A stretch of DNA of 56,895 nucleotides, taken from positions 1 to 56,895 of the IMG/VR virus record IMGVR_UViG_3300042731_003524; one strand, 5' to 3'. This DNA is from a virus. Made by a program: the position numbers and the translations under genes. Below are positions 1,244 to 56,070 of this stretch, in pieces (the first letter of the stretch is position 1; each line of letters opens with the position of its first letter). The notes under the pieces are model-generated. The model saw nothing but the letters and a program-made list of their open reading frames with translations. It was not told the origin of the DNA and did not search any database.

Positions 1244-1631
1244 CTGACGACGAGGGAACGTCACTGGGGGATTCTTCTTTTTGGTGAGTCTCGGGACACA
1301 AGGACTTCATCGCCTTGAGTTCGGCTTTGACCTCCTGGAGTTCGGTGTAGTATTTAGAAGCGCGTGCACCAGCGTCGGCTGCTTCTTTCTTTGCAGCTTT
1401 TACATCGATGACATCCGCCTCTTCGTCTGTGACGAGTTGATCGTCTTGGATGAAGTTGAGGGAGATGTCTAACTTACTCCGGTCGATTTTGTAGGAGTCT
1501 GGATCGTTGTAACTCTCCTTGTGGGTGGAGACTTTTGTTACGCCGGAAAAGGCTTTAATCACGGCGGCGGCGTCACAATCGGGAGGGAAGAGATACTTGT
1601 AGTAGTCGAGGGTGAGAAGAAGACGAGCCAT
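1233..1631 (-). CDS. hypothetical protein, 132 aa
   Basis: The ATG at 1631 follows TAAAGGAG by 7 bases. The N-terminal half is globular with aromatic residues (MARLLLTLDYYKYLFPP). The C-terminal half (about 75-110) is a Lys/Glu/Ala-rich helix predicted to form a coiled coil, ending in a Ser/Asp tail. No family is recognised. A copy of the dispersed CGTCACTGGGG word lies in its 3' end at 1259-1269. Confidence 0.75.
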   Translation of the reverse strand: MARLLLTLDYYKYLFPPDCDAAAVIKAFSGVTKVSTHKESYNDPDSYKIDRSKLDISLNFIQDDQLVTDEEADVIDVKAAKKEAADAGARASKYYTELQEVKAELKAMKSLCPETHQKEESPSDVPSSSDGG

Positions 1632-1632
1632 G

Positions 1633-1896
1633 TTATTTCTCCTTTATTGGGGTGTGGCCTAGGACTCTGCGAATCCAGAACGAGTGGGTATTGCACCACT
1701 TCTTCACGCCCGTATCGTAGACGAGAGTGCAGCGGGTGCAGCAGAAGTCACCGCTGTCGGATTGGAAGCCTGAGTTCACGAGGACTCCGCAGAGAAGGCA
1801 CGGTCGAAGTTCGGAAGTCACCGCGTGATAAGGAGTGGGGGGAGTACCCCCGTCATAGAGGGTCTTGTCCAAGAGTTGGTAGAGGACGACGGCCAT
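1633..1896 (-). CDS. putative zinc-ribbon protein, 87 aa
   Basis: The ATG at 1896 lies behind AGGAG. The protein has paired cysteines typical of a treble-clef or zinc ribbon (CLLC at about 33-36, CCTRC at about 52-56, then a Cys-His in WCNTH). It probably binds a structural zinc ion and may contact nucleic acid or protein. It abuts the genes on both sides. Function unknown. Confidence 0.75.
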   Translation of the reverse strand: MAVVLYQLLDKTLYDGGTPPTPYHAVTSELRPCLLCGVLVNSGFQSDSGDFCCTRCTLVYDTGVKKWCNTHSFWIRRVLGHTPIKEK

Positions 1897-1908
1897 GAAT
1901 GGGCACTC

Positions 1909-2217
1909 CTAAAGTTCGATTGTTCCTATAGGTAGAGGTAAGCCGAGCGCGTCGTGGCAAGCATTTCGTACTTCCACCAAACGAAGCTTTGGAATAGTGG
2001 CTGTGGGGTTGAAGTCTTTGACGTTGTCCCCAGTATGAAGAAGGTCTTCACAGAGTTTATACGCCTTCTGACACGCCCACTTTGCCTTAGTATGAGACAT
2101 CGACTTCTCATAAATTTGAGTTCGCAAACTACTTACCTCATTAAGGAGCTTAGCAACTCTACTATGATCTCCGTAGTAGTAGCTAACAAGTTCGTCCTGG
2201 GTCCAGTCGTCTTGCAT
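1909..2217 (-). CDS. hypothetical protein, 102 aa
   Basis: Predicted mainly helical, acidic at the N-terminus (MQDDWTQDELVSYYYGD) with a Lys/Cys-containing middle helix. The start at 2217 shares a base with the stop of the membrane protein upstream, so the two are probably translated together. No family recognised. Confidence 0.7.
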   Translation of the reverse strand: MQDDWTQDELVSYYYGDHSRVAKLLNEVSSLRTQIYEKSMSHTKAKWACQKAYKLCEDLLHTGDNVKDFNPTATIPKLRLVEVRNACHDALGLPLPIGTIEL

Positions 2218-2357
2218 CAGGTGAATACCTCTCTAGTGTAGTAGGCGATGAGTTTGCAGCCACCGATGATCCCACCGAAGAAGGCAAGAGCTAAGACTAA
2301 TAGAGCGACGACCGCGACGAGGAACGCAGTCCAGTTGGTTCTATTGCTCGCCGACAT
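2217..2357 (-). CDS. small single-pass membrane protein, 46 aa
   Basis: The chosen start, ATG 2357, follows GGGAGG by 6 bases; longer forms have no such site. After a polar N-terminus (MSASNRTNW) the protein has one long hydrophobic segment (about residues 10-35, rich in Ala/Val/Leu then Gly-Gly), ending in a short basic tail. Size and topology fit a phage membrane protein such as a holin or superinfection protein, but nothing specific identifies it. Confidence 0.7.
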   Translation of the reverse strand: MSASNRTNWTAFLVAVVALLVLALAFFGGIIGGCKLIAYYTREVFT

Positions 2358-4254: not shown

Positions 4255-4260
4255 GAGGAA

Positions 4261-4398: not shown

Positions 4399-4628
4399 AT
4401 TTGTTTCTCCTTTAATACGGGAGGATCGAAGGTGAGAGTGAGAGTCTTATTCGTCACTGGGTTGCGAGCTTCTATCGAAGTGCAGCCCACGCGGGCCGCG
4501 TCTTGTAAGGCTTCGAGAACGACGAGGGCTAGGGAGATGGTTTTGGATAGGGGTAGGGCACATGCGGAGGCCACCTCCTCCATGCGGTCTAGATCAGCGT
4601 GACTGATTGTGAAGCGGATTTGGGTCAT
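4395..4628 (-). CDS. putative ribbon-helix-helix DNA-binding protein, 77 aa
   Basis: ATG 4628 is chosen over a longer frame because it has a (weak) AAGGG site and fits the fold. Residues 2-8 (TQIRFTI) look like the DNA-reading beta strand, about 9-24 helix A (HADLDRMEEVASACAL), then a turn with PLSK and helix B (TISLALVVLEALQDAA). This is the layout of Arc/CopG/MetJ-type dimeric repressors, followed by a 25-residue beta-rich tail. One copy of the dispersed motif lies inside the gene (4452), one 40 bases upstream of its start (4668) and one at 4925. That suggests autoregulation and makes it the prime candidate for the protein that reads the motif. The fold is inferred from sequence pattern only. 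Confidence 0.65.
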   Translation of the reverse strand: MTQIRFTISHADLDRMEEVASACALPLSKTISLALVVLEALQDAARVGCTSIEARNPVTNKTLTLTFDPPVLKEKQI

Positions 4629-4629: not shown

Positions 4630-4929
4630 TTACAGCCCTTTGAAGACGGTGGAAGGGGTGACAATTTCCCAGTGACGACTGTAACACGCGATCTCGTCGA
4701 ATTCCTCAGCCGTGATTCTCTGCACGTCTCTCACTCTGACGGGGTCTCTGGACCTGTTTCCGTTCACTTCTCCATAGGAGTGGAGATGGATGAGACACAA
4801 TTTGAACGAGTCTACTTGACAAATCATCGCCACCGAGTTGTCGGAAGGGTCGCGGAGTAGAGTTCCTTGTCCGATGGATGTGGGGATGTAACCGGGTTGT
4901 TGATTGTTGAAAAACTCTGCGGGGGTCAC
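4630..4929 (-). CDS. hypothetical protein, 99 aa
   Basis: The start is GTG 4929, read from the context AAGGAGAACCCCAGTGAC. The start codon lies inside a copy of the dispersed motif and overlaps the TGA of the gene upstream (GTGA). A longer frame to 4995 lacks a ribosome-binding site. The protein begins TPAEFFNNQQPGYIPT after the initiator and contains a beta-rich middle (MICQVDSFKLCLIHLHSYG). No family recognised. Confidence 0.7.
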   Translation of the reverse strand: MTPAEFFNNQQPGYIPTSIGQGTLLRDPSDNSVAMICQVDSFKLCLIHLHSYGEVNGNRSRDPVRVRDVQRITAEEFDEIACYSRHWEIVTPSTVFKGL

Positions 4930-5285
4930 TGGGGTTCTCCTTGTTTTGGGTGTACGATCTTGTTGAATTCGATTACAGCGGACTGAGCGGCGCACGAGTG
5001 TGCGCGGTGTGTGGGGTTCTTCGAGATGTCGTGCAGTATTTGGCTTAGAATGTCCACACGGTAGGCTAGCTCTTCTCCAGCGGCTGTAAGCTCCGTGCGG
5101 CTGTTGACGGCGCGGATGATGTCGTCTACCTTACACCCCGATGGGTCATGGGCTAGATCAACCATACATGGCAGTCGCATAACGAGATTTCCATCTGCGT
5201 CAAACACTTCCCACCACTCCTCGTTCGTTGAGCGATCAACATACGGTTTTTGAAAGCGAGATATCGGCAGTTTCCACTCGCTCAT
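4926..5285 (-). CDS. hypothetical protein, 119 aa
   Basis: ATG 5285 follows AGGAGCC. The first half is beta-like (WWEVFDADGNLVMRLP), the second helical (AAGEELAYRVDILSQILHDI). The central stretch resembles the common phage domain in which a residue field, a Cys and a DDI segment precede a helix. Function unknown. Overlaps its neighbours by 4 bases on both sides. Confidence 0.75.
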   Translation of the reverse strand: MSEWKLPISRFQKPYVDRSTNEEWWEVFDADGNLVMRLPCMVDLAHDPSGCKVDDIIRAVNSRTELTAAGEELAYRVDILSQILHDISKNPTHRAHSCAAQSAVIEFNKIVHPKQGEPQ

Positions 5286-7585: not shown

Positions 7586-7837
7586 CTAGTTGAAGTGTCG
7601 TTTCCAAGTGACGCCCGCCCATGTACCGACAAGCGAGCCGAAGATACAGACGAGGAGAATCGCCGGAAGGTTCAACGGCTCGAACCAAAGAAATTCAGAG
7701 TCGATTAGTGGGGGGTCAACGTCACTGGGATCAACGGGGGTGAAGTTGGGATCGGACAAGGGTCCAATCTCCCCGCTTTGACCGAGTGCACAGGCGACGA
7801 TAAGAAGGACGAAGAGGATTGGGGGAATACGTTTCAT
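7586..7837 (-). CDS. putative lipoprotein with C-terminal membrane segment, 83 aa
   Basis: The N-terminus (MKRIPPILFVLLIVACALG) is a typical signal sequence with a lipobox-like LIVAC, so Cys-16 could be lipidated after export. A Pro/Asp-rich linker follows, then a second hydrophobic segment (about 56-76, LPAILLVCIFGSLVGTWAG) and a basic end. The AAGGAG site lies inside the end of the small gene upstream. Envelope location is inferred. A role in lysis or exclusion is possible but not shown. Confidence 0.75.
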   Translation of the reverse strand: MKRIPPILFVLLIVACALGQSGEIGPLSDPNFTPVDPSDVDPPLIDSEFLWFEPLNLPAILLVCIFGSLVGTWAGVTWKRHFN

Positions 7838-10457: not shown

Positions 10458-11120
10458 TTATGAATCGAGTTCTTGGCGCACGGTGTCGAGGGTGCGACGA
10501 CCTTCAAGCCAATCGAATAGCAGTTCCGTTTGAGCAGCCCAAGCAGCAGCCCGAGCAGCATCCTGAGCAGCCCAAGCAGCAGCCCGAGCAGCATCCCAAG
10601 CAGCAGCCCGAGCATCACTCAGTTGCTTTGTTGTGGCCTCCCTCAGTACGAATTTTCGAGCTGTTGTAATAGCGTTGGTAACTCGTTCGTCGTTTGCTAA
10701 GTGAGCCACTTTAGCAGCGCAGTCGGCGGCGAATAGCTGTTGAGTTTGAGGATTCCAAGTAGGTAGCAAGCGGCGTACAACGATCTCATCACATGTCACT
10801 CCCTTGTCTTCCCCCCAAACGATCCCGCCTTTGATGACGACAATCGCAATGTGTGTTGACAAGTGCTGTACTAAGTGCTCCCTCTTACAGAAGTGGTAGC
10901 CGTTTCGACACAAAACTGGCTCGCCTTCCAACGAAGGGAAGGCGGCGGGGAGTGTGGTCAAGTCGTATTGACCATAGCCGTAGGCGCCTGAAACGACGGG
11001 GAGTTCGCCTTGAAATGTTTTGTAGTACGTTTCCATGTTGAGCCTCATTGTGAATGATGTAAGCCTTCTCCCAGTGACGTATCCTACCATGCGTCCTCGG
11101 GGCCGGTGATGTACTCCCAT
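10458..11120 (-). CDS. hypothetical protein with Ala/Trp repeat tail, 220 aa
   Basis: ATG 11120 has AAAGGAG 7 bases upstream; later in-frame starts (11048, 11036) have weaker sites, although homologues might start near METYYK. Residues about 29-150 form a globular domain (YKTFQGELP, GAYGYGQYDL, RNGYHFCKREH). The C-terminus is an Ala-rich helix built from near-repeats of ARAAAWDA (about 175-205), encoded by 33-bp tandem repeats. The overall plan resembles phage proteins with Ala/Trp/Asp repeats of unknown role. A motif copy lies at 11070 within the N-terminal extension. Confidence 0.75.
   Translation of the reverse strand: MGVHHRPRGRMVGYVTGRRLTSFTMRLNMETYYKTFQGELPVVSGAYGYGQYDLTTLPAAFPSLEGEPVLCRNGYHFCKREHLVQHLSTHIAIVVIKGGIVWGEDKGVTCDEIVVRRLLPTWNPQTQQLFAADCAAKVAHLANDERVTNAITTARKFVLREATTKQLSDARAAAWDAARAAAWAAQDAARAAAWAAQTELLFDWLEGRRTLDTVRQELDS
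10532..10614. repeat. 33-bp tandem repeat, about 2.5 copies
   Basis: Units at 10532-10564 and 10565-10597 are identical except for the last base, and a partial third follows to about 10614. They lie inside the gene at 10458-11120 and encode its Ala/Trp repeat, so copy number may vary between relatives by slippage. Confidence 0.85.
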
Positions 11121-13626: not shown

Positions 13627-13922
13627 GCTTGCTCCCCCTCACTCACCCCGCGCGGTTCCCCTCGCCAACCACCGAGCGCTTTTTTCGTTCCTTCGCTACC
13701 CAGTGACGATCGTCTCGCGACCAGTCACCCAGCGCGTCACCCCGCGCGTTGCCTAGCGACAGAACAAGCACCCCGCGATCGCTCCCTAAAAGACAATCAA
13801 CCCTAAACGTCCTCAATTAGACTCCCCCATCGGCCCCCGAGGTGTGGTGAAATATGGATCAAAGGTCTCCCTCCTCTATTTACAGCGCCAACACAAAATC
13901 CCCCAATTCGTCTATATCCCCC

Positions 13923-14468: not shown

Positions 14469-14497
14469 TTGCATCCTCATCGTCACTGGGGTAAAAT
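14469..14497 (+). promoter_or_regulatory. promoter with dispersed motif in its spacer
   Basis: -35 TTGCAT (14469-14474), 17-base spacer whose last 11 bases are exactly CGTCACTGGGG (14481-14491), then -10 TAAAAT (14492-14497). A protein bound to the motif would cover the promoter. It drives the genes from 14527, which has AAAGGAG upstream. The preceding 125 bases (14345-14468) show nothing else recognisable. Confidence 0.7.
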
Positions 14498-14526
14498 TCT
14501 CCTATCACAAAAAGGAGACCCGCAAA

Positions 14527-14916
14527 ATGTTCGATTCTACCAAAGTCCGTTTGAAGTGTCGCCCGATGCGAGGGCGCCTGTCCGCCCGCCTACGATGGGA
14601 AACTCCGACACATCGTTGGCTCTCTGAGTGCGCATGGAACTACCTCGGCTTTGGGCTTCGCATCCTTCTCCCCCGCAAACTTCTCCGTTGGCAACGCCAC
14701 TTCTACTATGATCGAGAAGGTGACCTCCGCCACGTAGACCCGCCCTCAACCGAGAATACGTCACTGGGGGAAATCATCGAATACCTCGAAGTCTGGACCT
14801 ACGGCATTACAGACAGACGCAGGCTCTACCCTCTCAAAGACTCCCTCGCCCGAATAAAAGACCTCTGGGAAGCAGAACTTTACGGACGAGAACTAGCCTT
14901 CTTCCTTAACTACTAG
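14527..14916 (+). CDS. hypothetical protein, 129 aa
   Basis: ATG 14527 with AAAGGAGACC upstream. Basic N-terminal half rich in Arg and Trp (RLRWETPTHRWLSECAWNY), then a helical acidic half (SLGEIIEYLEVWTYGI, LKDSLARIKDLWEAEL). The motif at 14759 encodes TSLG here. It directly precedes the helicase gene and may be its partner; no family recognised. Confidence 0.75.
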   Translation: MFDSTKVRLKCRPMRGRLSARLRWETPTHRWLSECAWNYLGFGLRILLPRKLLRWQRHFYYDREGDLRHVDPPSTENTSLGEIIEYLEVWTYGITDRRRLYPLKDSLARIKDLWEAELYGRELAFFLNY

Positions 14917-22494: not shown

Positions 22495-22514
22495 ACAGAT
22501 ACCCAGTGACGTGA

Positions 22515-23185: not shown

Positions 23186-23222
23186 GAACCCCAGTGACGT
23201 ATCCCGTTGCTGGGGTTCTTTT
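23186..23222 (+). terminator. rho-independent terminator built on a motif copy
   Basis: GAACCCCA (23186-23193) pairs with TGGGGTTC (23211-23218) and is followed by UUUU. The left arm and loop contain CCCCAGTGACG (23189-23199), a reverse copy of the dispersed motif. It ends the transcription unit begun at 22467. Confidence 0.85.
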
Positions 23223-40821: not shown

Positions 40822-43674
40822 ATGGCTAATCCAAGACTACCGAGAGATCGGCTCAGCATGGCATTGTATCTGGCTGGGTCGGGCGAGGGGGAGATGGCGC
40901 TTCAATCTCTGGTCGATCCGTATAAGGTACCGCTGAGGTATCAGAAGCAGATTTCGGATTTGATGGAGCCGGGATTCGATCCCGAGTCGATGGTGCCCGT
41001 GGTGGAGGAGAAGGGACTATTCCCGACGATTCGTCGCCTGTTTTCCAATCCTGTTTTTCTTGGGGGGATTATTCTGGCTGGTTTGTATCCGGTGGGTCGC
41101 AAGGGGATCATGCGATACCTTGAGAACGCGAAGAACTATTCGCACATGCCGTGGTTCCATCAGTTGAGGTCCGCGAATCAGATTTTCAGGGATAAGGCGG
41201 GGCAGTTGACGAAGGCCGGGCGTATGCTCATGGATACATCGTTTGAGATTGAGAGGGAGATCGGGAAGCACGGAACGATGTTGCAGGAGGCTGTGACGAA
41301 GTACGAGAAGGCGACTGGGAGGGCGCTGGATAAAGCGACGGCTGTGAAGATCAATCTGTGGCTGGAGAAGCCATGGGAGTCGATGAATCCTGAATGGAAG
41401 AGGGTGCGAGACTTGTCGGGGAGAAGCAACGTCGGGGTGATGAAGTTCAACTTGACGAGGGAGGAGAAGCTTGTAGCGGACGCATTTGATGCGCTAAGGC
41501 GGGGAGAGTACGAGCGCACGTTGAAGCCGTTGCATGGGGGCCAGATGAAGCAGTTTCGAGGGGAACTGAGGAATCGAGGAATCGTCACTGGGAATCTTCC
41601 TTCACCGGAGAGGATGGATACGTATGTGCCGCACTACTTGCATACGAGGCCGGGGCCGATTCGGGATGAGGTGACGAAGCTGTTGAGGGAGGGGAGGATT
41701 GACGAGGCCGTTGCGCTGTCGAATCCGAGGGCACCTGCCACGCAGTTGACGTACGAGCAGTATAAGAGGGGACAGTTGAGCCCGAAGGTGGCGAAGAGTG
41801 TGCGGGCGCGTGAGATGTGGATGCTGCCGACGCCTGAGCATTTGAAGCTGGTGGAGAGGTATTTGAAGCCGGGTTCTGTAGCGGCGGTGGAGGAGGCATT
41901 GTTGAAGGGGAGGCGATTCGCGTCGAAGCGACCGTTGATGGTGGCGGAGTATTCGTTGGACGGTCGGCAGACGTGGATGGCGTACGCGGACTCGATGGCT
42001 AGGTTTAGAGTGCTGCATGTGAAGGAGGCGGGGAAGGCGTTATCACGGTATGAAGCGCTGCGTCAGGAGGGCGACGTGGTGATGGGGCAGAATAAGATTC
42101 TGGGGAAGTACCTGACGGACGTGCATCTGCCGCTGTTGCAGGGGAGATTGTCGGAGGCCCAGTTGTGGAGGATGCAGGCGTGGGAACAGAAGAAGATGCA
42201 GTGGGTGGAGATGTTGCAGACGAACAAGTTCTTTCAGAAGGGGCCTGCGAAGGAACTGGCGAATAAGCTGACGAATTCGTTAATGACTGGTGCGTTGTCG
42301 AGTCAGGTGAGTCGGGATGCAGCGATTACCGGGTACTTGTATACGTCCACGCTTGGGGCTAACTTTGGCTCGGCGTTGACGAACCTAATGCAGACCTTCT
42401 TGACGACGGTTCCCTCCCTTGGGTTTGTGAATACGGCGGAGGGGACGTTGAACGCGATGAAGAAGATGGGGAAGTATTTCTCACAACGGGGTGAGGGTGT
42501 AGCGCATCGAGTTGCGTTTGAAAAGGCGTTCCCTGAGTTTATTGAGTCGGGGTTGCACACAGCAGGGGAAACGTCACTGGCGAGGATTCTGGATCACTCG
42601 TGGAGGGACGTATCCGGGCGGTTGAGTGGAAGCCGCGTGTGGACGAAGACGCAGGCGGCGCTGTTGCGGCCGTTCACCTTGGCGGAGACGACGAACCGAG
42701 TAGTAGCGTTTGAGAGCGCTATGGCGGCGAGTAAGGCGGGGGGATTGAGTAAGGCACAGTCTGCAGAGGTAGCGCGTCAGGTGGTCGCGGAGACACAATT
42801 CTTGACGGGGCCATTGATGCAGCCGCAGTATTTCCTCACGAGTAAGACGTTGGGAAGACCGATTTTTCGACAGTTTTTACAGTTCCCTTTGGGATTGGCT
42901 GGGTACTTGGGGTCTGCGGTTGGACGGGGAGACTTGGGGACGTTGGGGCGATTTGCAGCGACTAGCGCGGCGGGCGTACAGTTAGCGCGGGAAGCGGGGA
43001 TGGACTGGCGCCATGCGTTTGGAATGGGGGCGCTGCCAATACAGAAGGAAGGACTGTTGGGGGTCTTGCCGACGCCACCCATCGCGTCACTGGGGGAGGC
43101 GTTGTTGAGCCCGTTTACGGGAGATGAATATGCGGGGAGGAAGGCGTTGCCGCTGCTTGTACCAGGTGGTGTTGCGACGGCTCGGGCTACGACGGCGTTT
43201 GCGCCTGGGGTCGCGGAGAAGCTGGGGAAGACGTATGTGGATTATAATCGGCCGAACGAGGAGGGGCTACTGCCGATGTACAAGCCGAACGGGCAGTTGA
43301 TTGGGCACTTCTCGAAGACGCAGATTATGTTGCAGGGGTTAGGTGTTCGTCCAGCGTCACTGGGGGAAGAGCAATCGGCGATTAAATATCTGATGAAGCA
43401 GAGGGACATTATACGGGACATGAGGAGACGGGCAACGGAATCGTACATGAAGAATCAGATGGGCGAGTTCTCCAAGCTGAGTGAGGAGTGGAAGAGAATG
43501 TTTGGAACGCCCTTCATGTTGAAGAGGAGCGATATCAAGGCATGGCGAGATAGGAAGGACATGACGAGGATGGAAGTATTGTATCGACAGATGCCAGCCG
43601 AGTTGAAGCCTCAATTTAGGCAGGCGGTGTACGGGTCGATGGTTGAAAACCAGCCGACGTACCTCGGGGGTTAG
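40822..43674 (+). CDS. large internal virion (ejection) protein, 950 aa
   Basis: The last and longest of the ejection block, in the position of T7 gp16. It is helical and basic, with a hydrophobic segment about residues 70-90 (PVFLGGIILAGLYPVGRKG) and another near 720-745 (GLAGYLGSAVGRGDLG). No lytic-transglycosylase Glu motif was seen, so peptidoglycan-cutting activity is not supported. Motif copies at 41583, 43085 and 43355, plus a near-copy at 42572. The gene converges with the tail-fibre gene, overlapping it by 4 bases. Confidence 0.7.
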   Translation: MANPRLPRDRLSMALYLAGSGEGEMALQSLVDPYKVPLRYQKQISDLMEPGFDPESMVPVVEEKGLFPTIRRLFSNPVFLGGIILAGLYPVGRKGIMRYLENAKNYSHMPWFHQLRSANQIFRDKAGQLTKAGRMLMDTSFEIEREIGKHGTMLQEAVTKYEKATGRALDKATAVKINLWLEKPWESMNPEWKRVRDLSGRSNVGVMKFNLTREEKLVADAFDALRRGEYERTLKPLHGGQMKQFRGELRNRGIVTGNLPSPERMDTYVPHYLHTRPGPIRDEVTKLLREGRIDEAVALSNPRAPATQLTYEQYKRGQLSPKVAKSVRAREMWMLPTPEHLKLVERYLKPGSVAAVEEALLKGRRFASKRPLMVAEYSLDGRQTWMAYADSMARFRVLHVKEAGKALSRYEALRQEGDVVMGQNKILGKYLTDVHLPLLQGRLSEAQLWRMQAWEQKKMQWVEMLQTNKFFQKGPAKELANKLTNSLMTGALSSQVSRDAAITGYLYTSTLGANFGSALTNLMQTFLTTVPSLGFVNTAEGTLNAMKKMGKYFSQRGEGVAHRVAFEKAFPEFIESGLHTAGETSLARILDHSWRDVSGRLSGSRVWTKTQAALLRPFTLAETTNRVVAFESAMAASKAGGLSKAQSAEVARQVVAETQFLTGPLMQPQYFLTSKTLGRPIFRQFLQFPLGLAGYLGSAVGRGDLGTLGRFAATSAAGVQLAREAGMDWRHAFGMGALPIQKEGLLGVLPTPPIASLGEALLSPFTGDEYAGRKALPLLVPGGVATARATTAFAPGVAEKLGKTYVDYNRPNEEGLLPMYKPNGQLIGHFSKTQIMLQGLGVRPASLGEEQSAIKYLMKQRDIIRDMRRRATESYMKNQMGEFSKLSEEWKRMFGTPFMLKRSDIKAWRDRKDMTRMEVLYRQMPAELKPQFRQAVYGSMVENQPTYLGG

Positions 43675-46380: not shown

Positions 46381-48909
46381 ATGGCTTGCACGCTGCCGGG
46401 GCACCCAGATTGCGAGAAATGTGCGTTTCACGAGGGGGCGAAAGAGGTGGGAATCGCGGGGAGGGCGATCCGAGACTTGGGGTCTAGGAAGTGCGTACTG
46501 GTGGTGGGTCAGAGTCCGGGGGTGGAAGAGGATAAGACGGGACGGGTATTCATCGGACGATCGGGGAAGCTATTGGAGGGGGCCTATGTGAACCATATGC
46601 CGAAGGGGTGGGACATAGTGGCCACGAACGCGGTGAAGTGTGTGCCGCCGTATCGGGTGGACCCGCGCGTGACTCAGTGTAAGGCGTGTGGGGGGTATCT
46701 AGGGGAGGACTTCGCGGCCGTTCTAGAGGCGTATGACGAGGTGAAGGTGCTGTGCTTGGGGAAGGTGGCAGCGCTGGCAGTGTTGGGGTCGAAGACGCTG
46801 AAGGCAGCGATGAGACGACAGGGGGAGTTGGTGACGAGGTTGCCATGGGCGGACGAGCCCCTATCTAAGCCGGTGCGAGTGTTCACGACGTATCATCCAG
46901 CGTTCATACTGCGAGATCCGAAGCCCGCAATCCTGGGGGCCGTGGAGGACCACTTGGCGCTGTTGAGGGAGGACGCAACGGGCACGGTCGAGGGGCGCGT
47001 AACGACGGTAGGAATGAGCGAGTTTAGAACGTCACTGGGGGAAGATCGACCGGAGTTGATGTGGTTGGATATTGAGACGTACGGGATTCGACCGGGGGTT
47101 GAGCAGACGGTGTTCAATCCCCATGCGTCGTACGTGGTGGATGGAGTGAAGTATTCGAATCAAATCGTGTCGATCGCATTCTCGTATTGGAAGGGGGAGG
47201 AACTGATTGTAACTTCTGGACTGATAAGCAGTCACGAGAAGACGATACGCGGGATTCTGAGCGACGCAACGTCACTGGGAATTGGCTTAGGGGGCACGAG
47301 TATCGCGTTCGACTTGAGCTATTTGAAGTGCCGATTTCCAGGGTGGGTGATACGAAGTAATACTCATCTAGTGGACCTATGTGCGGTGAGCTTCGCGGAG
47401 AATCCGAATCGACCAGAGGGCAGTCTGAAGGACTTGTCGCCGTTGCTGTTGCGAGGGAAGGAGGCGAAATACGAGAAAGGGATGAAGAAGTACGGAGATG
47501 ATCGCGAGTTGTTGATGTACAACATGCAGGATGTAATCAACCCAGCGAGGATTTATCGGCTGCTGGTGGGGAGGATGGAGGTAAGAGGATACCCCAGTGA
47601 CGTAGGGGCGTTGCTACGATGGTACTCGTTCGTGGTTCATCGGCTGTTGGAGATGGGGATGGAGGGGACGGAGATGGATAAGGAGAGGTTGGGGGAGTTG
47701 GAGCGTCAGACGAGAGGTCGGGTGGAGACGATGGTGAGGGGGGCGCCGACTAGGGGGCCCGAGTTCGTGTTGAGGGGGAAGGGATCGGGGCTGTACGCCG
47801 ACTGGTTGTTTAATCTCATTGGAACGACTGAGAAGGGGTATAAGTGGGAGATGACGAAGACTGGGGTGAGCACGGGGAAGAGCAATACGAGGCGAGCGCT
47901 GTCGATTCCAACGTTATCAAGAACGCTGAAGACGAGGGTGAGATTGATCTCTCACTATCGGACAGCGAACAAGCTGTTGACGAGTTATCTCTCGCCTATG
48001 GAGGCGATGTTGGCGGGGGGCTCTCGGGTGTGGCCGACATGGTTTCCGGTGCCGAGTCGGTTTGACCGGGGGAAGATGGACGGAGGAACGAGGCAGGGTC
48101 GGATTACGTGTAAGCGGCCCGCGTTGCAGACGAGCCCGCCGCAGATTAAGGCTCTGTTCAAGTCGAGGTATCGGGGTGGGTGCTTGGTGAGCTTCGATTT
48201 TAGCCAGTTGGAGTTGAGAGTGGCCGCGCTGTTGTCGGGGGATCAGCGGTTATTGCAGGTGTTCAGGGATGGGAGGGACATTCATCAGGAGACGTTGGAC
48301 GGGGTGTACGGACGGCCGGTTGGGAAGGACGTACCGAACTATGATCGATTGAGGAAGCTGGCGAAGTACACGAACTTTGGTACGATTTACGGGATTGGGC
48401 CTCCGCATTTGAGGGAGGTATTATGGAAGCAGGGGGGGATCGACGTTTCAGAGTTGGAGTGCGCGAAGTTCATTACGGGTTTCAGGCGGACGTATTGGGG
48501 GTATCAAGCGTGGCAGCGCGATCAGGTAGAGAGGGTGAGAAAGGATCGGCGGTTGGAGTTGCCGATTACAGGCCAGTGGTTGAGCTTCGCCGATCCGAGG
48601 ATGAACTTTGATAAGGCGATTCTCAATTTCCCGATCCAGACGACGGCCGCGAACATCTGCTTGGTGGCCCAAGGGTTGGTGAAGTCGATCTTGGATGTGG
48701 GTGCTAGGGGAGTGGTGCCGTTGCAGATTTACGACGCGGTGTTGGTTGATCTAAAGTGGAAGGACGAAGAGGGGCTTCAGGAGATAGAGAGGGTAATGAC
48801 TGATAATTGGTATTTGAAGGCGTTGTTCGAGGAGTACGGGAGGAGCTTGCCGATCACGGTGGACCGGAAGATTTTGTACGAGGAAGGACCCCAGCCGTCG
48901 TATCATTGA
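46381..48909 (+). CDS. uracil-DNA glycosylase/DNA polymerase I fusion, 842 aa
   Basis: ATG 46381 with AGGAG upstream. The N-terminus (1-210) is a family 4-type uracil-DNA glycosylase: cluster cysteines CEKC (11-14), KCVPP (C87) and QCKAC (100-103), active-site motif GQSPG.EED (43-51) and the YHPAF His. Then a 3'-5' exonuclease: LDIETYG, IAFDLSYL, YNMQD. The polymerase palm shows motif A SFDFSQLELR, motif B RKLAKYTNFGTIYG and motif C QIYDAVLVD, where the usual His-Asp-Glu reads Tyr-Asp-Ala. It is the replicative polymerase. A UDG-like N-terminal domain on a phage polymerase has precedent in SPO1-type phages. Motif copies at 47030, 47270 and 47592. Confidence 0.92.
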   Translation: MACTLPGHPDCEKCAFHEGAKEVGIAGRAIRDLGSRKCVLVVGQSPGVEEDKTGRVFIGRSGKLLEGAYVNHMPKGWDIVATNAVKCVPPYRVDPRVTQCKACGGYLGEDFAAVLEAYDEVKVLCLGKVAALAVLGSKTLKAAMRRQGELVTRLPWADEPLSKPVRVFTTYHPAFILRDPKPAILGAVEDHLALLREDATGTVEGRVTTVGMSEFRTSLGEDRPELMWLDIETYGIRPGVEQTVFNPHASYVVDGVKYSNQIVSIAFSYWKGEELIVTSGLISSHEKTIRGILSDATSLGIGLGGTSIAFDLSYLKCRFPGWVIRSNTHLVDLCAVSFAENPNRPEGSLKDLSPLLLRGKEAKYEKGMKKYGDDRELLMYNMQDVINPARIYRLLVGRMEVRGYPSDVGALLRWYSFVVHRLLEMGMEGTEMDKERLGELERQTRGRVETMVRGAPTRGPEFVLRGKGSGLYADWLFNLIGTTEKGYKWEMTKTGVSTGKSNTRRALSIPTLSRTLKTRVRLISHYRTANKLLTSYLSPMEAMLAGGSRVWPTWFPVPSRFDRGKMDGGTRQGRITCKRPALQTSPPQIKALFKSRYRGGCLVSFDFSQLELRVAALLSGDQRLLQVFRDGRDIHQETLDGVYGRPVGKDVPNYDRLRKLAKYTNFGTIYGIGPPHLREVLWKQGGIDVSELECAKFITGFRRTYWGYQAWQRDQVERVRKDRRLELPITGQWLSFADPRMNFDKAILNFPIQTTAANICLVAQGLVKSILDVGARGVVPLQIYDAVLVDLKWKDEEGLQEIERVMTDNWYLKALFEEYGRSLPITVDRKILYEEGPQPSYH

Positions 48910-48968: not shown

Positions 48969-49475
48969 ATGATGAAGATGGCTCTGATGAGTTTGGCTAC
49001 GCTGCTGGTAGGTGGGTGTCTTAGCGGGTGCTCGGCGGAGCATTGGGCGGGGAAGACAACGATGCGAACTGAATTGAAGTTCAACCCAGTGACGAAGACG
49101 TTCTACTTTGTGGATACGAAGGACAACGACATTGAGATGGAAGACCTGGAGATGGACGCTGAGTCAAAGAGATTGACGCTGGCTCGATTGAAGATCGTGA
49201 ACAATTCGAGCACGGCTATTGCGGCCGAGGTTGATCGAATTCTGGCGGTGGCCGAGGCGCAGAAGACGCAAGTGGAGTATGTTAGCGCGCTGACGGATGG
49301 GATTGGGAATGTGGTGAAGGAGTTGGTGCCGTTGGTGTCGTCGTTGCAAGGTGTTATTGCGGCGCTTAATCCTGACGATCCGAGTACGATCGAGCAGTTG
49401 ACGGAGGCATTGGAGGCCCTTGAGGCGTTACAGCAAGTCAAGGAGATTACTCCTGGAGCAACTACCGATGAGTAG
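48969..49475 (+). CDS. phage lipoprotein, 168 aa
   Basis: ATG 48969 follows AAGGAGGA; the long upstream frame overlaps the polymerase and is rejected. Signal MMKMALMSLATLLVGGC with a lipobox-like VGGC, a second Cys nearby, then a beta part (FYFVDTKDNDIEMED) and a helical coiled-coil half (KTQVEYVSALTDGIGNVVKE). It has its own promoter. Probably anchored in the envelope, perhaps in lysis, superinfection exclusion or receptor masking. Confidence 0.75.
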   Translation: MMKMALMSLATLLVGGCLSGCSAEHWAGKTTMRTELKFNPVTKTFYFVDTKDNDIEMEDLEMDAESKRLTLARLKIVNNSSTAIAAEVDRILAVAEAQKTQVEYVSALTDGIGNVVKELVPLVSSLQGVIAALNPDDPSTIEQLTEALEALEALQQVKEITPGATTDE

Positions 49476-49926
49476 TCGCAAATGGCTGTGGGCGCTTCTT
49501 GTAGTGCCTCCAATGTTTTTAGGCTGCGATGCCAGCGGCGGGAAAGGTAACGTCACTGGGGAGAATCCTGATAAGATCGTTGCTGGGGTGGGGAGTGGGA
49601 CGCAGGACACGTCTGGAGTGAAGGTGAGTCCTGCGTTGACTGGGTTGGTGTCCAGTCATGGAGATAACGATCCGTGGTTGGGCAGGATTTTCGCGCTGGC
49701 CGTGGCGTTCGGCGGGCCGTACATGCTGCGGCAGTTTCTTCGTCTGATTGAAGAGGTGATGACGCACCGAAGGATTATGGCGTGCTCGTCGAGTGAGATT
49801 TCCGAGGTCTTGAAATCAGGAGCTATACATGGGAAGAGAGACGAAGCCAAAGCCGCCCTTGCCCGTATCAAAGCTGGTTCTGGACGGAGAGGAGACGGAG
49901 GTTCAGTATCCAGGGACGCTACCTGA
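49468..49926 (+). CDS. lipoprotein with a membrane segment, 152 aa
   Basis: ATG 49468 overlaps the previous gene behind GGAG. Signal RKWLWALLVVPPMFLGC with lipobox FLGC, a Gly/Ser/Thr-rich linker (the motif at 49551 encodes VTG), a membrane segment (about 80-98, RIFALAVAFGGPYMLRQF) and a basic tail. It forms a pair with the lipoprotein upstream; such pairs can act as spanins, but the second membrane segment is atypical. Confidence 0.7.
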   Translation: MSSRKWLWALLVVPPMFLGCDASGGKGNVTGENPDKIVAGVGSGTQDTSGVKVSPALTGLVSSHGDNDPWLGRIFALAVAFGGPYMLRQFLRLIEEVMTHRRIMACSSSEISEVLKSGAIHGKRDEAKAALARIKAGSGRRGDGGSVSRDAT

Positions 49927-50314: not shown

Positions 50315-50577
50315 GCGACGAATTGATCTACCATAAGATCGTACGTTCCCCCAGTGACGATCATATACGACGGACGATGCTTCGAGCCAAGAAGGACTTG
50401 GGGAAGCTTGTCACGGTGTTCAATCGGAATTCTAGTCGGCAGAACGAGGTGCTAACGAGGTTGTTCGATGTTATTTGCCGTCTCGTCTCTCTGTCGGCGT
50501 CGTTGAGGGAGGCATCTAGTGCTTCAACTGGTGATAAGCGATCTTCAGATTCCGTTCCACGACCGGAGGGTTCTTAA
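50191..50577 (+). CDS. hypothetical helical protein, 128 aa
   Basis: Mostly charged helices (QREKLHRWAQAAQILSDISD, LRAKKDLGKLVTVFNRNSS). The ATG at 50191 has only a weak ribosome-binding site and overlaps the protease gene by 124 bases, so the true start is uncertain. The motif at 50349 encodes PSD. No family recognised. Confidence 0.6.
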   Translation: MERDHESENQFKRDVLDAESSGEQREKLHRWAQAAQILSDISDELIYHKIVRSPSDDHIRRTMLRAKKDLGKLVTVFNRNSSRQNEVLTRLFDVICRLVSLSASLREASSASTGDKRSSDSVPRPEGS

Positions 50578-51274
50578 CGCGGCGCTCGACATAGCGCTGA
50601 AGGAGCAGCCGGACGTTGTTCATATGCTGGGGGACGTGGGGGACTTCTTTAGCGTTTCTCGCTTCGTGGAGGAGCCACGGGATGAGCGACTGTTGCGGTT
50701 GAAGTTCGAGTTGGAGAACGTGGGGGCGCTTATCGACAACATAAGGGGGTCCTGTCCTAAGGCGAAGGTGCATTTCCACTGTGGGAATCACGAGGCGAGG
50801 TTGCAGAAGTATGTGTATTCACGGGTGGGGCCGCTAGCTGGGTTGGACGAGTTGAGGTTGGAGAACTTGTTGAGGCTCAAGGAGCGCGGGGTTGAGTATC
50901 ACGAGTACGGGACAGTAGTGAAGGTGGACGGGATTGGATTTACGCACGGGCAGGTGGTACGGAAGAACGCGGGGGCAGCCGCGCTTGAGACGATCATGCA
51001 GACGGGGTGCTCCACGATGATGGGGCACACGCATAGGATGGGGTACGTGGCGAAGAGGATGGAGAACAAGGTGTTGGAAGGGTGGGAGATCGGATGCTGT
51101 TGTCGGTTGAATCTGCCATACGTCGTGGGAACGCCGAACTGGCAACAAGGCTTCGCTGTGGTGGAGGACGGACAGGTGACGCTACTGCCGTGGAAGGGTG
51201 GGATATTCTGGAAAGGACGTCACTGGGGGAAAGATAAGAACCTGTTGGTTGGAATCAAGGGCGCGCGAGCGTAG
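50519..51274 (+). CDS. calcineurin-like metallophosphoesterase, 251 aa
   Basis: Metal-binding signatures in order: ISDLQIPFHD (about 6-15), MLGDVGDF (about 36-43), CGNHE (about 89-93), THGQ (about 142-145) and GHTHR (about 168-172), the dimetal phosphoesterase set. Such phage enzymes cleave phosphodiesters in nucleic acids or nucleotides; this one lies among replication genes. GTG 50519 follows GGAGG. The motif at 51218 encodes RHW, the rarest frame used. Confidence 0.9.
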   Translation: MLQLVISDLQIPFHDRRVLNAALDIALKEQPDVVHMLGDVGDFFSVSRFVEEPRDERLLRLKFELENVGALIDNIRGSCPKAKVHFHCGNHEARLQKYVYSRVGPLAGLDELRLENLLRLKERGVEYHEYGTVVKVDGIGFTHGQVVRKNAGAAALETIMQTGCSTMMGHTHRMGYVAKRMENKVLEGWEIGCCCRLNLPYVVGTPNWQQGFAVVEDGQVTLLPWKGGIFWKGRHWGKDKNLLVGIKGARA

Positions 51275-51847: not shown

Positions 51848-52382
51848 GAAGTTCGTCGTGTCGTGCGACGATCGTGAGAAACGACCGATCGTCTTTCCAA
51901 AGGTGTATGCGCTCGGGGGGACGCTGCATCTGATTGAGCCGCAGAAGAAGCGGATGAAGGTAGGGGATTACGCGGACCCCAGTGACGTAGTGGGGATCGA
52001 GAGGAAGAGTGCGCTGAGCGAGTTGTTTGACTGTTTCTACGGAGGGAAGCGGCGGAGTTGTAGAAGACAACTGGAGAATCTTAGTAAGAAGTACGATGTG
52101 GGGATTCTTCTCGTGGAGACGCAGCCGCACGAGGTGATAGCGCACGACTTTACGAAGGACTATCGGGGGGCGTGTCAGATCGAGGCGAAGGCGGGGCTCG
52201 GGCATGTGATCGTGCAGAACATCGTGAGCGATGCGGTGGAGTTCGGGCTACATCTCGTTTGGTGCGGGCGGGTGGACACGACGGCACGAAGGACGTCACT
52301 GGGGGCCTTGGTTCTTTCGTGGTTGTATTACGGGCGATATTGGGCGGAGCGAGGGAAAAAACTGAAAAGAGCTTGCAAGTAG
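51834..52382 (+). CDS. ERCC4-type nuclease, 182 aa
   Basis: VVSCDDREKRP near the N-terminus, then MKVGDYADPSD and VGIERKSALSELFDCF match the ERCC4/XPF nuclease core (GDY..., ERKxxxD/E). The remainder is alpha/beta (VGILLVETQPHEVIAHDF). Such phage enzymes cut branched or flap DNA during recombination. ATG 51834 (MANPKKF) is preferred over the longer frame. Motif copies at 51977 and 52294. Confidence 0.85.
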   Translation: MANPKKFVVSCDDREKRPIVFPKVYALGGTLHLIEPQKKRMKVGDYADPSDVVGIERKSALSELFDCFYGGKRRSCRRQLENLSKKYDVGILLVETQPHEVIAHDFTKDYRGACQIEAKAGLGHVIVQNIVSDAVEFGLHLVWCGRVDTTARRTSLGALVLSWLYYGRYWAERGKKLKRACK

Positions 52383-52401: not shown

Positions 52402-52436
52402 AGGGGAGGTCGATAGTTCAACTCAAGGAGAGCATG

Positions 52437-52670: not shown

Positions 52671-52679
52671 GAGATCATG

Positions 52680-52913: not shown

Positions 52914-54089
52914 ATGATTGGCGGAGGCGGTGCGTCAATTAGACAAGCGGCGTTGGAAAGGGGGGAGAATCCAATGGAGATTTTCAATCATTTCCATCCG
53001 CTACATAATCTTGGGTTCAAGGTAATTCGTCCTACGGTAACGGGGAGTGGGTGCGGGACGTTCAATGAGTGCGAGAGGAAGTATTTCTTCGAGGAAAGGA
53101 TGGGGTTGAGGAAGAAGGGGGAGATGACGCCCGAGTATTTTCTGGTGGGGGAGATGGTGCATGAGGCGATGCGCGTGTATTCGCTGGGGAAGGGCGATAG
53201 CGCAGCAGCGCTGGCGGTTTCTGTGATTGGGGGGCGAGAGATTGATGATTGCACGATTGGAGGGGTGTTGCCGCCTGGCGTGCTTGAGCATGTAGATCGG
53301 TGTACGCAGAAGTCGTTGGCGATGGCAATATTCTTTCGAGACGTGTTGAAGAAGTATGGGGAGATGTTCGACGGAGAGAAGCACGAAGTGTTAGGGGCGG
53401 AGGTAAGGATCACGGCCAAGGCGACGTTTGAAAAGGGGATAGGGAGGAGTAGTGCTGCGACGATTGGAGGGCAGTTGGACTTGGTGACGAGAGAGCGGGC
53501 GACTGGCGAAGTGACACTACACGACTACAAGCAGACGGGCGGGAAACCGTTGGATCGAGCTAAGACGGTGAAGTTGGAGAAGCAGCCATGGATGTATCGG
53601 TTGTTGTGGGAGTGCTTGGAGGGGGTTAAGGCGACGAAGTTCAAGCACTACATTTTAAAGCGGCCCACGATTCGACAGCACAAGCCGAGTAAGAGTAAGC
53701 CGGAGGGGGAAACGTTCCAGGAGTATGTTGAACGGATGAAGTTGTGGTACTTGGACGAGCAGCAGAAGGGGAATAATCCGTTGGTGATCTCGACGTATGT
53801 CTATCCGACAGAAGGGTATCCGTCATGGTTCGTCGAACAGTTGAGAAGGGTGGCGAAGGCGGGGGCATTGCGGCCCTACTTGAGGTTTTTCCCGCCGACA
53901 GGGGCGCCTCATAGGTGCGTAGAGAGAGGGGGAGAGTGTCAGTTCCTGAATATCTGCACGAGTGACCCAGTGACGTGGGTGGAGATGATCGCTGGGAAGT
54001 TCAAGCGGGTGTTTAGGTATGATGAAGATGAGGAGAAGAAGGGGAGGATAGGATCCGATTACAGTTTTGATCTTGGAGCAAGAAAATGA
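52914..54089 (+). CDS. PD-(D/E)XK nuclease (Cas4/RecB-like), 391 aa
   Basis: NECERKYFFEERMGL and GEMVHEAM near the N-terminus, then GQLDLVTRERATGEVTLHDYKQ with the catalytic D...D-x-K, and EKQPWMYRLLW form the RecB/Cas4-type core. C-terminal cysteines (RCVERGGECQFLNIC) plus the N-terminal CGTFNEC could hold an Fe-S cluster, as in Cas4 and AddB. Probably an exonuclease preparing single strands for the Sak4-like recombinase downstream. ATG 52914 lies behind GGGAG (an alternative is 52974). Motif copy at 53966. Confidence 0.88.
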   Translation: MIGGGGASIRQAALERGENPMEIFNHFHPLHNLGFKVIRPTVTGSGCGTFNECERKYFFEERMGLRKKGEMTPEYFLVGEMVHEAMRVYSLGKGDSAAALAVSVIGGREIDDCTIGGVLPPGVLEHVDRCTQKSLAMAIFFRDVLKKYGEMFDGEKHEVLGAEVRITAKATFEKGIGRSSAATIGGQLDLVTRERATGEVTLHDYKQTGGKPLDRAKTVKLEKQPWMYRLLWECLEGVKATKFKHYILKRPTIRQHKPSKSKPEGETFQEYVERMKLWYLDEQQKGNNPLVISTYVYPTEGYPSWFVEQLRRVAKAGALRPYLRFFPPTGAPHRCVERGGECQFLNICTSDPVTWVEMIAGKFKRVFRYDEDEEKKGRIGSDYSFDLGARK

Positions 54090-54341: not shown

Positions 54342-55241
54342 ATGAGCCAGACGATTGTTGATGCGCTGGGCGGAAGTCCTCTGTTTAAGGAGGTGGCGCG
54401 CGAGAGTCATATTGGGCCGGTGACGGAGGAGTTAGAGAAGAAGGTGGTCGCTATCATGGGGTGGCCCGGTAGCGGGAAGACGTCGTTGCTGAGAAGTATG
54501 CCCAATACGTGGATTTGGGACGTGGACAAGGCGACTAAGGACTTGCCGCCGATTGTGCATCCCGAGTCGTCGATGTATACGGTGATCCGTAGTTGGGAGC
54601 AGGTGAAGAAGTATCTGGATTTGCTGGAGGAGGCAGCAAAGCAGGGGAAGAGACCGTTCAAGGCTGTAGCGATTGATACGACGGATGGACTGTTTGGAAG
54701 TCAGGCGAGCTTGCTAGCGGAGTACGCGATTAAGGCTGAGAATACGGACTTCATCTCAGCGTTTGGAAGTAATGGGGCGGGATGGGGGCGTCAGATTGAA
54801 GGCGCTTGGCAGTGCGTGAATCGGATTATTAATGCGGGGTACGGTCTATGGATGACGTGCCACTTGAGAAGGAAACTGGTTGAGAGGCCTGACGGAACGA
54901 GCCAGACGATCGTCACTGGGGACTTGACTCCCAAGGTGTCGAGGATTGTTATGGGGTCGGCGACGTACGTGGTGGTTACAGCGAAGTCGATTGGGACTGT
55001 GACACACGAGACGGAGAAGAAGTTGACGACAGGGGCTACGACGGTGATTAAGGAGCGAATTAGGAAGCCGATCTATACGATGATCTTTCGGAGTAAGGAT
55101 CAAAGTATGGAGGAGCAGTTGAAGAGTCGGATCAATGTTGGGGATGAGATTGTGTTTGACAGGGATAATGGGTTTGCCCTGTTTGAAAAGGCGTACAATG
55201 ACGCGCTTGGAATTAAGAATGAAGGAGACAAGAGTGAGTAG
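54342..55241 (+). CDS. Sak4-like ATPase/recombinase, 299 aa
   Basis: RecA-fold ATPase of the AAA_24/Sak4 group: Walker A MGWPGSGKTSLL (about 39-50), Walker B KAVAIDTTDGL (about 107-117), then GLWMTCHLRRKL. Such proteins promote annealing and strand exchange of single-stranded DNA. Next to a DUF669-like ssDNA-binding protein, a nuclease and a polymerase, it forms the usual recombination set. ATG 54342 follows AGGAG. Motif copy at 54912. Confidence 0.88.
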   Translation: MSQTIVDALGGSPLFKEVARESHIGPVTEELEKKVVAIMGWPGSGKTSLLRSMPNTWIWDVDKATKDLPPIVHPESSMYTVIRSWEQVKKYLDLLEEAAKQGKRPFKAVAIDTTDGLFGSQASLLAEYAIKAENTDFISAFGSNGAGWGRQIEGAWQCVNRIINAGYGLWMTCHLRRKLVERPDGTSQTIVTGDLTPKVSRIVMGSATYVVVTAKSIGTVTHETEKKLTTGATTVIKERIRKPIYTMIFRSKDQSMEEQLKSRINVGDEIVFDRDNGFALFEKAYNDALGIKNEGDKSE

Positions 55242-55695
55242 CTTTTCTGCTGATGCGATGGCCATTTTGGAATCAGAAGAGGTAATGGGATCGTGGAAGG
55301 AGGCGCAGGAGCGCGCGAATCCAGTGCCGCACAACGGTTTGTACAACATGCTGCTAACGAAGGTTGGTGAACCGAAGAAGATTGAGTCTAAGGCGACGGG
55401 GAAGACCTTTAGGTTGGTGCCGCTCAGTCTGAAGGTGGTTGACCCCGGAGAGTATGGTGACTATCCCTTCACTAACGATTTCTTTATTAGCTCGCCTAGC
55501 GGGGCGGAACAGTTTCTGACGTTCACCTGTCTCGCTGCTGGGAAGCCTATTGATCATCCCGTGGAGGGTGTCGAGGCTTTGCAGGCGGTTGAGGGGTCGG
55601 CCATCTTCGAGGTGGAGATTTCTCGAAGTAAGGGTAAGGACGGGCGAGAGTACGTGAACATGCGAGCAAAGAGTCGATCCGATGTGCAGGAGTAA
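55234..55695 (+). CDS. ssDNA-binding protein, DUF669-like, 153 aa
   Basis: GTG 55234 lies 6 bases from AAGGAG and overlaps the recombinase stop; the ATG upstream is rejected. Mixed beta sequence (ANPVPHNGLYNMLLTKVG, FRLVPLSLKVVDPGEYGDY) ending FEVEISRSKGKDGREYVNM, typical of DUF669/OB-fold phage proteins that accompany Sak4 recombinases. Coats single strands in replication and recombination. Confidence 0.8.
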   Translation: MSSFSADAMAILESEEVMGSWKEAQERANPVPHNGLYNMLLTKVGEPKKIESKATGKTFRLVPLSLKVVDPGEYGDYPFTNDFFISSPSGAEQFLTFTCLAAGKPIDHPVEGVEALQAVEGSAIFEVEISRSKGKDGREYVNMRAKSRSDVQE

Positions 55696-55776
55696 CAACT
55701 GAGGGTAATCCGTGAGTGCTCTTTAGGGGTTTGTTCACTTCCCTTCACCCCGAACCACGGACATTCATGATGCTGG

Positions 55777-55806
55777 GGAGGGGTCTTCGGGCCCCTCCTG
55801 CTTTTT
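55777..55806 (+). terminator. rho-independent terminator
   Basis: GGAGGGG (55777-55783) pairs with CCCCTCC (55792-55798), loop TCTTCGGG, followed by TGCTTTTT. It ends the replication operon. The 70 bases before it (55710-55760) can also fold as nested CCGTG/CACGG and GGGGT/ACCCC arms. Confidence 0.85.
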
Positions 55807-55818
55807 AAGGAGAAACGA

Positions 55819-56070
55819 ATGAGTACGCCGAGGTGGACTGATCCCAGTGACGTTGCGGAACAAGCCGTTCGATTTCGTCTGAGTGGGACGCATAGCCGTG
55901 CTCAGGAAGACGTGTTGTTGGATGCTGCGGCACTGGCGGTGGACCTGATGGATAAGATTGGGGTGGGGCCGCTGGCACCGACAGACGATCTAGTGGATCA
56001 TGTGAAGGCACACTGGAGAAGACTTGTAGCTTTGGAAAACGGGTTTGTTGGGGGAGAGTCAGCCAGATGA
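55819..56070 (+). CDS. hypothetical protein, 83 aa
   Basis: ATG 55819 with AAGGAG 8 bases upstream, shortly after the terminator, so it is made from read-through or a weak promoter not seen. Helical (QAVRFRLSGTHSRAQEDVLL, HVKAHWRRLVALEN). Motif copy at 55843. It is the last rightward gene. Confidence 0.7.
   Translation: MSTPRWTDPSDVAEQAVRFRLSGTHSRAQEDVLLDAAALAVDLMDKIGVGPLAPTDDLVDHVKAHWRRLVALENGFVGGESAR

Follow-up and report, generated by a model that had tools for sequence, protein, structure and literature searches.

An asymmetric DNA word repeated about fifty times in a tailed-phage genome, and its possible role as an uptake-signal-like tag

Why should a phage genome carry some fifty copies of one short, asymmetric DNA word, most of them inside genes? 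The question is raised by the IMG/VR virus record IMGVR_UViG_3300042731_003524, analysed here over its whole length of 56,895 nucleotides (the window), in which a sequence-only reading had pointed out the 10-base word CGTCACTGGG and its inner 9-base core GTCACTGGG. The virus is a tailed phage, and bases 1-69 and 56827-56895 are identical, so that its genome is probably complete, circularly assembled and about 56.8 kb long. We tentatively interpret the words as a self-DNA tag resembling an uptake signal, and we do not claim membership of the uptake signal sequence (USS) family for them.

Recounting gave 47 exact copies of CGTCACTGGG (29 plus, 18 minus) and 52 of GTCACTGGG (34 plus, 18 minus), five of the latter lying beyond the ten-mers, exactly as first reported. 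An order-2 Markov model predicts 0.19 and 0.55 copies, respectively, and 300 permuted words averaged 0.12 copies with a maximum of 2, which bears out the enrichment that had been claimed. Ranking the k-mers of the window revealed no other word comparably enriched: the top 15 listed 10-mers all overlap this one (47 down to 7 copies), the best unrelated 8-mer reaches 17 copies against 54, and the best unrelated 9-mer 11 against 52. The 12-base consensus WCGTCACTGGGD, also proposed at the outset, fits 43 of the 47 ten-mers. The word is sharply bounded, with 52 perfect cores against 11 one-mismatch 9-mers, for which chance predicts 14.1; decayed or nascent sites form no halo around it, and variation is tolerated only at the first base of the 10-mer (5 of 52). 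It is asymmetric and dispersed, as had been described, with no signs of a mobile repeat. The copies are listed below and, unless marked otherwise, are exact CGTCACTGGG.

1259..1268, plus: word copy, extended element from about -2 to +27
4452..4461, plus: word copy
4668..4677, minus: word copy
4924..4933, plus: word copy, first base G, 9-base core exact
7720..7729, plus: word copy
11070..11079, minus: word copy
13699..13708, minus: word copy, between genes
14481..14490, plus: word copy, between genes
14759..14768, plus: word copy
15044..15053, plus: word copy
17419..17428, minus: word copy
17901..17910, plus: word copy
18645..18654, minus: word copy, includes the GTG start codon of the predicted gene at 18649
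18842..18851, plus: word copy
19839..19848, minus: word copy
20218..20227, plus: word copy
22502..22511, minus: word copy, between genes
23190..23199, minus: word copy, between genes
23290..23299, plus: word copy, between genes
24275..24284, plus: word copy, in the terminase large subunit gene
26613..26622, plus: word copy
27568..27577, minus: word copy
27894..27903, plus: word copy
31400..31409, plus: word copy
32667..32676, plus: word copy
33473..33482, plus: word copy
34527..34536, minus: word copy
34601..34610, plus: word copy, first base T, 9-base core exact
34683..34692, plus: word copy
34829..34838, plus: word copy
35280..35289, plus: word copy, first base A, 9-base core exact
37312..37321, minus: word copy
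37514..37523, plus: word copy, first base T, 9-base core exact
38154..38163, plus: word copy
39680..39689, minus: word copy
40238..40247, plus: word copy, first base G, 9-base core exact
40516..40525, plus: word copy
41583..41592, plus: word copy
43085..43094, plus: word copy
43355..43364, plus: word copy
47030..47039, plus: word copy, in the DNA polymerase gene
47270..47279, plus: word copy, in the DNA polymerase gene
47593..47602, minus: word copy, in the DNA polymerase gene
49085..49094, minus: word copy
49551..49560, plus: word copy, between genes
50350..50359, minus: word copy, between genes
51218..51227, plus: word copy
51978..51987, minus: word copy, in the ERCC4-type nuclease gene
52294..52303, plus: word copy, in the ERCC4-type nuclease gene
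53966..53975, minus: word copy
54911..54920, plus: word copy
55843..55852, minus: word copy

The relation of the word to genes was assessed on 86 genes, curated by hand from open reading frame (ORF) length and ribosome-binding sites; 92.2% of the window is called coding, the choice of ORFs at 16.2-18.3 kb is uncertain and the stretch at 14-16 kb is C-rich. In agreement with the statement that most copies are genic, 44 of the 52 sites lie inside predicted genes, one on a gene edge and seven between genes; the intergenic number (7, or 8 with the edge site) compares with about four expected (P 0.108 and 0.047). Across 400 synonymous-codon shuffles the genic nine-mers averaged 1.84 and never exceeded 6, against the 44 observed, in support of the claim that the target of selection, or drive, is the DNA word rather than the protein. 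The same sites leave their mark on the predicted proteins. The peptide TSLG occurs 8 times, while its permutations average 0.48 with at most 2, and SLG 27 times (permutations 9.0 on average, at most 14); VTG, PSD, PVT and RHW are more frequent than all their own permutations by a smaller margin, and VTGD (4) is not above its best permutation (4). The word thus alters protein sequences, which is strong evidence for a force maintaining it. Use of both orientations and all three frames had been reported, and this holds for words running along the gene (16, 10 and 3 in the three frames); words opposing the gene use two frames only (9 and 6), since in the third a TGA would fall in frame. The choice among frames follows what the proteins can bear. 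When four proteins were aligned with distant homologues (19-34% identical), words sometimes adjoined alignment gaps and sometimes did not; one polymerase word and the terminase word sit where the homologues have a gap. An origin of the words by insertion was considered and set aside in favour of substitution as the simpler reading, a preference to which alignments of four proteins lend little weight.

Along the genome the words follow one another at a mean spacing of 1.07 kb (52 in 56.9 kb), with an exponential distribution of distances (Kolmogorov-Smirnov P 0.76), a coefficient of variation of 0.91 against 0.97 for random placement (P 0.34) and no phasing at 10.5 or 11 bp in the window. Coverage is uneven, the six largest word-free gaps measuring 2.6-3.7 kb. 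Inside genes, 29 words run in the direction of the gene and 15 against it; codon-order shuffles give 79:45 and synonymous shuffles 398:338 for the same comparison, and this same-strand excess in the shuffles themselves indicates that coding composition may account for part of the orientation bias. Only 6 words fall within about 16.8 kb made up of the minus-strand left arm, a minus-strand insert at 43671-46306 and the right end, a deficit with P 0.003 for regions picked after looking. The low number in these minus-strand modules would resemble that of recently acquired DNA, and was counted in favour of an uptake signal.

The element extends well beyond its core. With positions counted from the first base on the word's strand, and with positions shifted by multiples of three from the word sites as controls, it occupies about 30 bp, from about -2 to +27, and is therefore longer than had been noted. 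A/W is preferred at -2 and -1 before the core, and C is avoided at +10 and +11. Downstream, A at +11..13 reaches 0.39 against 0.22 in controls (z 5.2), T at +16..19 reaches 0.44 against 0.22 (z 7.8), and a weaker segment follows with T at +26..27 (0.39 against 0.23, z 4.1); these position groups were chosen after a per-position scan, which makes their P values optimistic. Taken strand by strand, the first two groups persist (minus: P 0.023 and 0.0008), so that codon context is not their cause, whereas T at +26..27 is carried by the plus sites (P below 0.001). The A/T-rich stretch earlier noticed after the word is accordingly real and structured.

This anatomy was compared with that of the USS by applying identical code to 30 distinct AAGTGCGGT sites, drawn from four IMG/VR loci, where A before the core is followed by A, T, a gap and T at places similar to those in the window. 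The A/T profile of the window correlates with this positive control at 0.56 (best of nine lags), as against 0.22 for the nick sites of phage tf and 0.0 for stoperators; random window positions give a mean of 0.20, a 95% point of 0.38 and a maximum of 0.56 in 300. Because it is independent of the picked position groups, this correlation is free of the bias of their choice, and the anatomical match is statistically supported.

These features restrict what kind of reader the word may have. A surviving candidate must grip double-stranded DNA either way, tolerate random placement, need a near-exact core and sense A/T composition over the next 18 bp or so, and the USS, the one known element found to have all these properties, is favoured on these grounds. 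According to the literature, USS and the DNA uptake sequences (DUS) of Neisseriaceae occur at near one copy per kb with an unusually strong consensus and no significant orientation bias, prefer non-coding DNA without being confined to it, and, in the case of USS, arise by substitution (PMC1626085). Segment 2 of the USS consists of A's followed by T's, with a T-rich segment 3 centred 12 positions further (PMC1626085); these A/T tracts are important for uptake, and their predicted structure is rigid with a slight bend (PMC7811141). The window word shares with the Pasteurellaceae USS (Haemophilus influenzae AAGTGCGGT) an asymmetric core of 9-10 bp, an A-then-T segment 3' of it, a T segment a turn further on, a density of about one copy per kb, weak or no orientation bias, occurrence in coding and non-coding DNA and an excess of perfect over mismatched copies. 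It differs in that its core is unrelated, its third segment weaker and its sequence sharper, and in that one phage, but no bacterial genome, was found to carry it so densely. With DUS it shares asymmetry, a similar length, a density of about one per kb and occurrence in both orientations; the words differ, and DUS have no flanking motifs (PMC1626085).

On this comparison, the roughly 50 copies would constitute a single asymmetric recognition element of roughly 30 bp, read as duplex DNA, in the order W, core CGTCACTGGG, an A-rich then a T-rich segment on the 3' side and a weaker T segment about one helical turn on. A protein would bind the word, and a DNA-handling machine would grip the tag in either orientation; this would most likely be the import machinery of a naturally competent host carrying the same word. 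Copies would arise by point substitution wherever proteins tolerate them and, as we propose, accumulate because tagged DNA is preferentially imported and recombined, drive and not a need for each site keeping them in place. Why uptake signals accumulate at all is still debated. Among the alternatives originally offered was a host-directed recognition word, and it is toward this that the extended anatomy points. The more specific proposition, that CGTCACTGGG with its USS-type A/T segments is a new uptake-signal dialect outside the two known families and first seen in a phage, is a doubtful one.

Several observations weigh against an uptake signal. The spacing is no more regular than random, though somewhat regular spacing and some close inverted pairs are reported for USS/DUS (PMC1626085); close inverted pairs are absent from the window, where the nearest opposite pair is 75 bp apart. 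Regular spacing and close inverted pairs were treated as secondary, not defining, properties. Orientation is mildly biased (34:18, P 0.036), the third segment is not significant in the 18 minus sites alone (P 0.19), and three USS control loci give exact to one-mismatch ratios of 9:10, 12:10 and 6:7, so that the window word is sharper than the element it is likened to. Scans of 81 of the 86 predicted phage proteins (all but five small ones) against Pfam or PHROGs turned up no recognisable competence gene. Moreover, uptake signals are described as known only in Pasteurellaceae and Neisseriaceae (PMC1626085, of 2006; PMC7811141 deals with the same two).

The search for a host adds to these points. 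A spaced-pair scan of 84,980 GTDB species representatives returned 16 stretches against about 14 estimated by chance. They come from 15 genomes, not one of them rich in the word, the sixteenth stretch (L118) being a second contig of a Buttiauxella genome already counted through L110. A 2-Mb genome with one copy per kb is estimated to yield about 30 pair matches; a tenfold lower density would escape. The extended word occurs once each in 5 of 369 Gammaproteobacteria genomes. That no word-rich host turned up in so large a set weighs heavily against uptake in its simplest form. At least three of the genomes with pair matches owe them to tandem arrays; unrelated arrays containing the word or its 9-base core were seen in a Nostoc sp. 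metagenome-assembled genome (MAG; G042 contig 67, period 36 bases) and in a Gemmataceae MAG (G030 contig 334, period about 71 bases). In 392 genomes from the phylum of a Gemmataceae MAG, a head-gene candidate (28515-30308) gave one match at 5e-4 with an internal stop, regarded as noise. Among viruses, the WWCGTCACTGGGGGAA scan of IMG/VR returned 11 stretches, ten from records with one 9-mer and one from a record with two, while two spaced-pair patterns yielded four stretches each (N260-290 and N120-150) and an inverted pair none, the eight records concerned carrying 2-5 copies; none of the 19 IMG/VR records from the pattern scans is dense (1-5 copies of the 9-mer). A limited open-access literature search, mostly of titles and abstract openings, found no description of a phage with such a word.

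The remaining genes of the phage bear on which other readers are conceivable. The following were recognised:

23313-25205, terminase large subunit (TerL)
46381-48909, family A DNA polymerase (PolA) with an N-terminal uracil-DNA-glycosylase domain
50519-51274, metallophosphoesterase
51831-52382, ERCC4-type nuclease
52914-54089, PD-(D/E)XK nuclease
54342-55241, AAA_24 protein

The polymerase is 26-28% identical over its length to those of Serratia phage Serbin and Manatee Spring phage ctfzr933, in which PD-(D/E)XK and AAA genes also neighbour the polymerase gene. All 30 best matches listed for the metallophosphoesterase are mycobacteriophage proteins at about 30-33% identity (Severus, E 2e-14), and it is weakly similar to gene 47 of phage tf (E 1e-4, with the tf ORFs searched alone). 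Phage matches of an AAA_25 protein are mostly annotated as helicases, DNA-binding proteins or RepA. In the same protein scan most late genes gave nothing firm in PHROGs, and no repressor or integrase was recognised; a PHROG 'transcriptional regulator' match at 9754-9972 is weak (E 0.0013, below better matches to unknown families), as is an 'HTH' match at 10458-11120 (E 0.0078). Four small proteins (203-667, 52434-52670, 52677-52913 and 54086-54322) look like paralogues, the last three showing 25-36% identity to the first by forced alignment and by eye, and no PHROG match. The GC skew is -0.35 at 14000-16000, in the AAA_25 gene, and about +0.2 to +0.39 over most of 24-56 kb; gene direction switches near 13.4-14.5 kb, where an origin may lie.

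Megablast of 24 kb against GenBank phages found no near relatives, and searches of IMG/VR by TerL, PolA or a polymerase-motif DNA pattern no close ones; the 80 loci kept, of at least 335 from the TerL profile search, are 21-34% identical. A k-mer screen covered 104 sequences including the window, scored those of 8 kb or more and considered the best 40 rows. None of its six other candidates has words scattered in either orientation like those of the window. Three distant terminase relatives (L024, L037 and L039) carry many tandem arrays of a 7-base unit (ACTGATT or ACTGCTC), which run in both orientations along their contigs and often adjoin AAAGGC or TTTGCC stretches; L033 has GCCCCTAC 17 times in 11.8 kb, several of the copies facing each other in pairs at a distance of about 40 bp, as in a hairpin-type repeat; L084 has repeats with near-tandem neighbours; and L067 has seven copies, all in the same orientation and confined to 5 kb, which may encode a peptide.

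Other readers of the word have to be weighed against import machinery. The sites may bind a protein, encoded by the phage or captured from a host, with a role in organising, condensing, segregating or packaging the phage DNA; the A/T segments would then be where the DNA bends or is gripped in the minor groove. A genome-wide, weakly oriented word with a footprint of about 30 bp that is dense in no other record of the scanned collections would suit such a protein; the uneven coverage with its multi-kilobase gaps would not, and neither ParB nor a nucleoid-type or other sequence-specific DNA-binding protein was recognised in the protein scan beyond the two weak matches above. A further point against it is that one packaging site normally suffices, and we regard this explanation as rather unlikely. 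Phages such as tf, Rembedalsseter, the phiKMV-like phages and T5 offer another precedent, localized single-strand interruptions, which a phage nickase introduces late in infection. The k-mer screen recovered the published tf nick word as 11 exact 9-mers, all on one strand; like the window word these are phage-borne, genic (8 of the 11 within genes and the other 3 at gene edges) and fairly sharp (6 one-mismatch copies beside the 11 exact ones), and the enriched tf 10-mer CGTCACAGTA has CGTCAC and 7 of 10 bases in common with CGTCACTGGG. Chance would give 7 matches with a probability of about 0.014-0.017, a common 6-mer with 0.010-0.015 and both with 0.004-0.006, values uncorrected for the several words compared. 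Only 4-5 bases match in the phiKMV word (10 bases compared) and in the T5 word, tf sites are without A/T segments, though n=14, and the window has 52 copies against 13-14. To our knowledge, there is no nickase sequence to serve as a search query. The nick words TACT/RTGMC (tf, PMC3517423) and WACTRTGAC (Rembedalsseter, PMC11780129) are reported as one-stranded and of unknown function, whereas the window has 34 and 18 copies on its two strands. Overall, nicking appears improbable.

A Chi-like signal would be read by the recombination module of the phage itself (PD-(D/E)XK, AAA_24 and ERCC4-type nuclease). That module is present, with PD-(D/E)XK and AAA counterparts near the polymerase of Serbin and ctfzr933, and a precise word suits an enzyme. 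Nevertheless, those two phages are without such a word in the same k-mer screen, and Chi-type signals are oriented and lack A/T segments, whereas the window word is only weakly oriented, which leaves this reading with a small likelihood. Decoy sites titrating a host DNA-binding protein would account for many copies in either orientation inside genes without any host-wide enrichment, yet decoys could cluster in non-coding DNA without altering proteins, and no candidate factor emerged; this appears still less likely. The sequence-only reading had chosen as its closest analogy the stoperators of mycobacteriophages, repressor sites that stop prophage transcription. The window word is, like those of cluster A, an asymmetric repeated phage word, and the best listed matches of the metallophosphoesterase are mycobacteriophage proteins, including that of stoperator-bearing Severus. 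In Mycobacterium phage Severus, the one cluster A phage used as control, the screen recovered the stoperator word unprompted, and all 19 exact GATGTCAAG sites oppose transcription, 14 of them intergenic; in the window 20 of 52 oppose transcription and 7 of 52 are intergenic, so that the word is neither mostly intergenic nor oriented to transcription. According to PMC9283540, reversing a stoperator abolishes its effect, the mechanism needing orientation. BLAST of the window found no match to the Severus repressor at E 0.05, and neither repressor nor integrase was recognised in the protein scan. Selection, or drive, on the DNA word stands from the original interpretation, and the stoperator analogy, now scarcely credible, does not.

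If the words are an uptake-signal dialect, the phage would be tagged as densely as a competent bacterium's own chromosome, and its DNA would routinely be imported by the competence machinery of its host, either as an entry route or as recombining fragments. Should a phage protein nick or bind them instead, the system would be the densest of its kind in the literature covered and would have sites on both strands; the purpose of nicks in phage genomes, an old question, would then become directly testable. An element of the uptake type would represent a third, independent origin of uptake signals and would link phage evolution to natural transformation.

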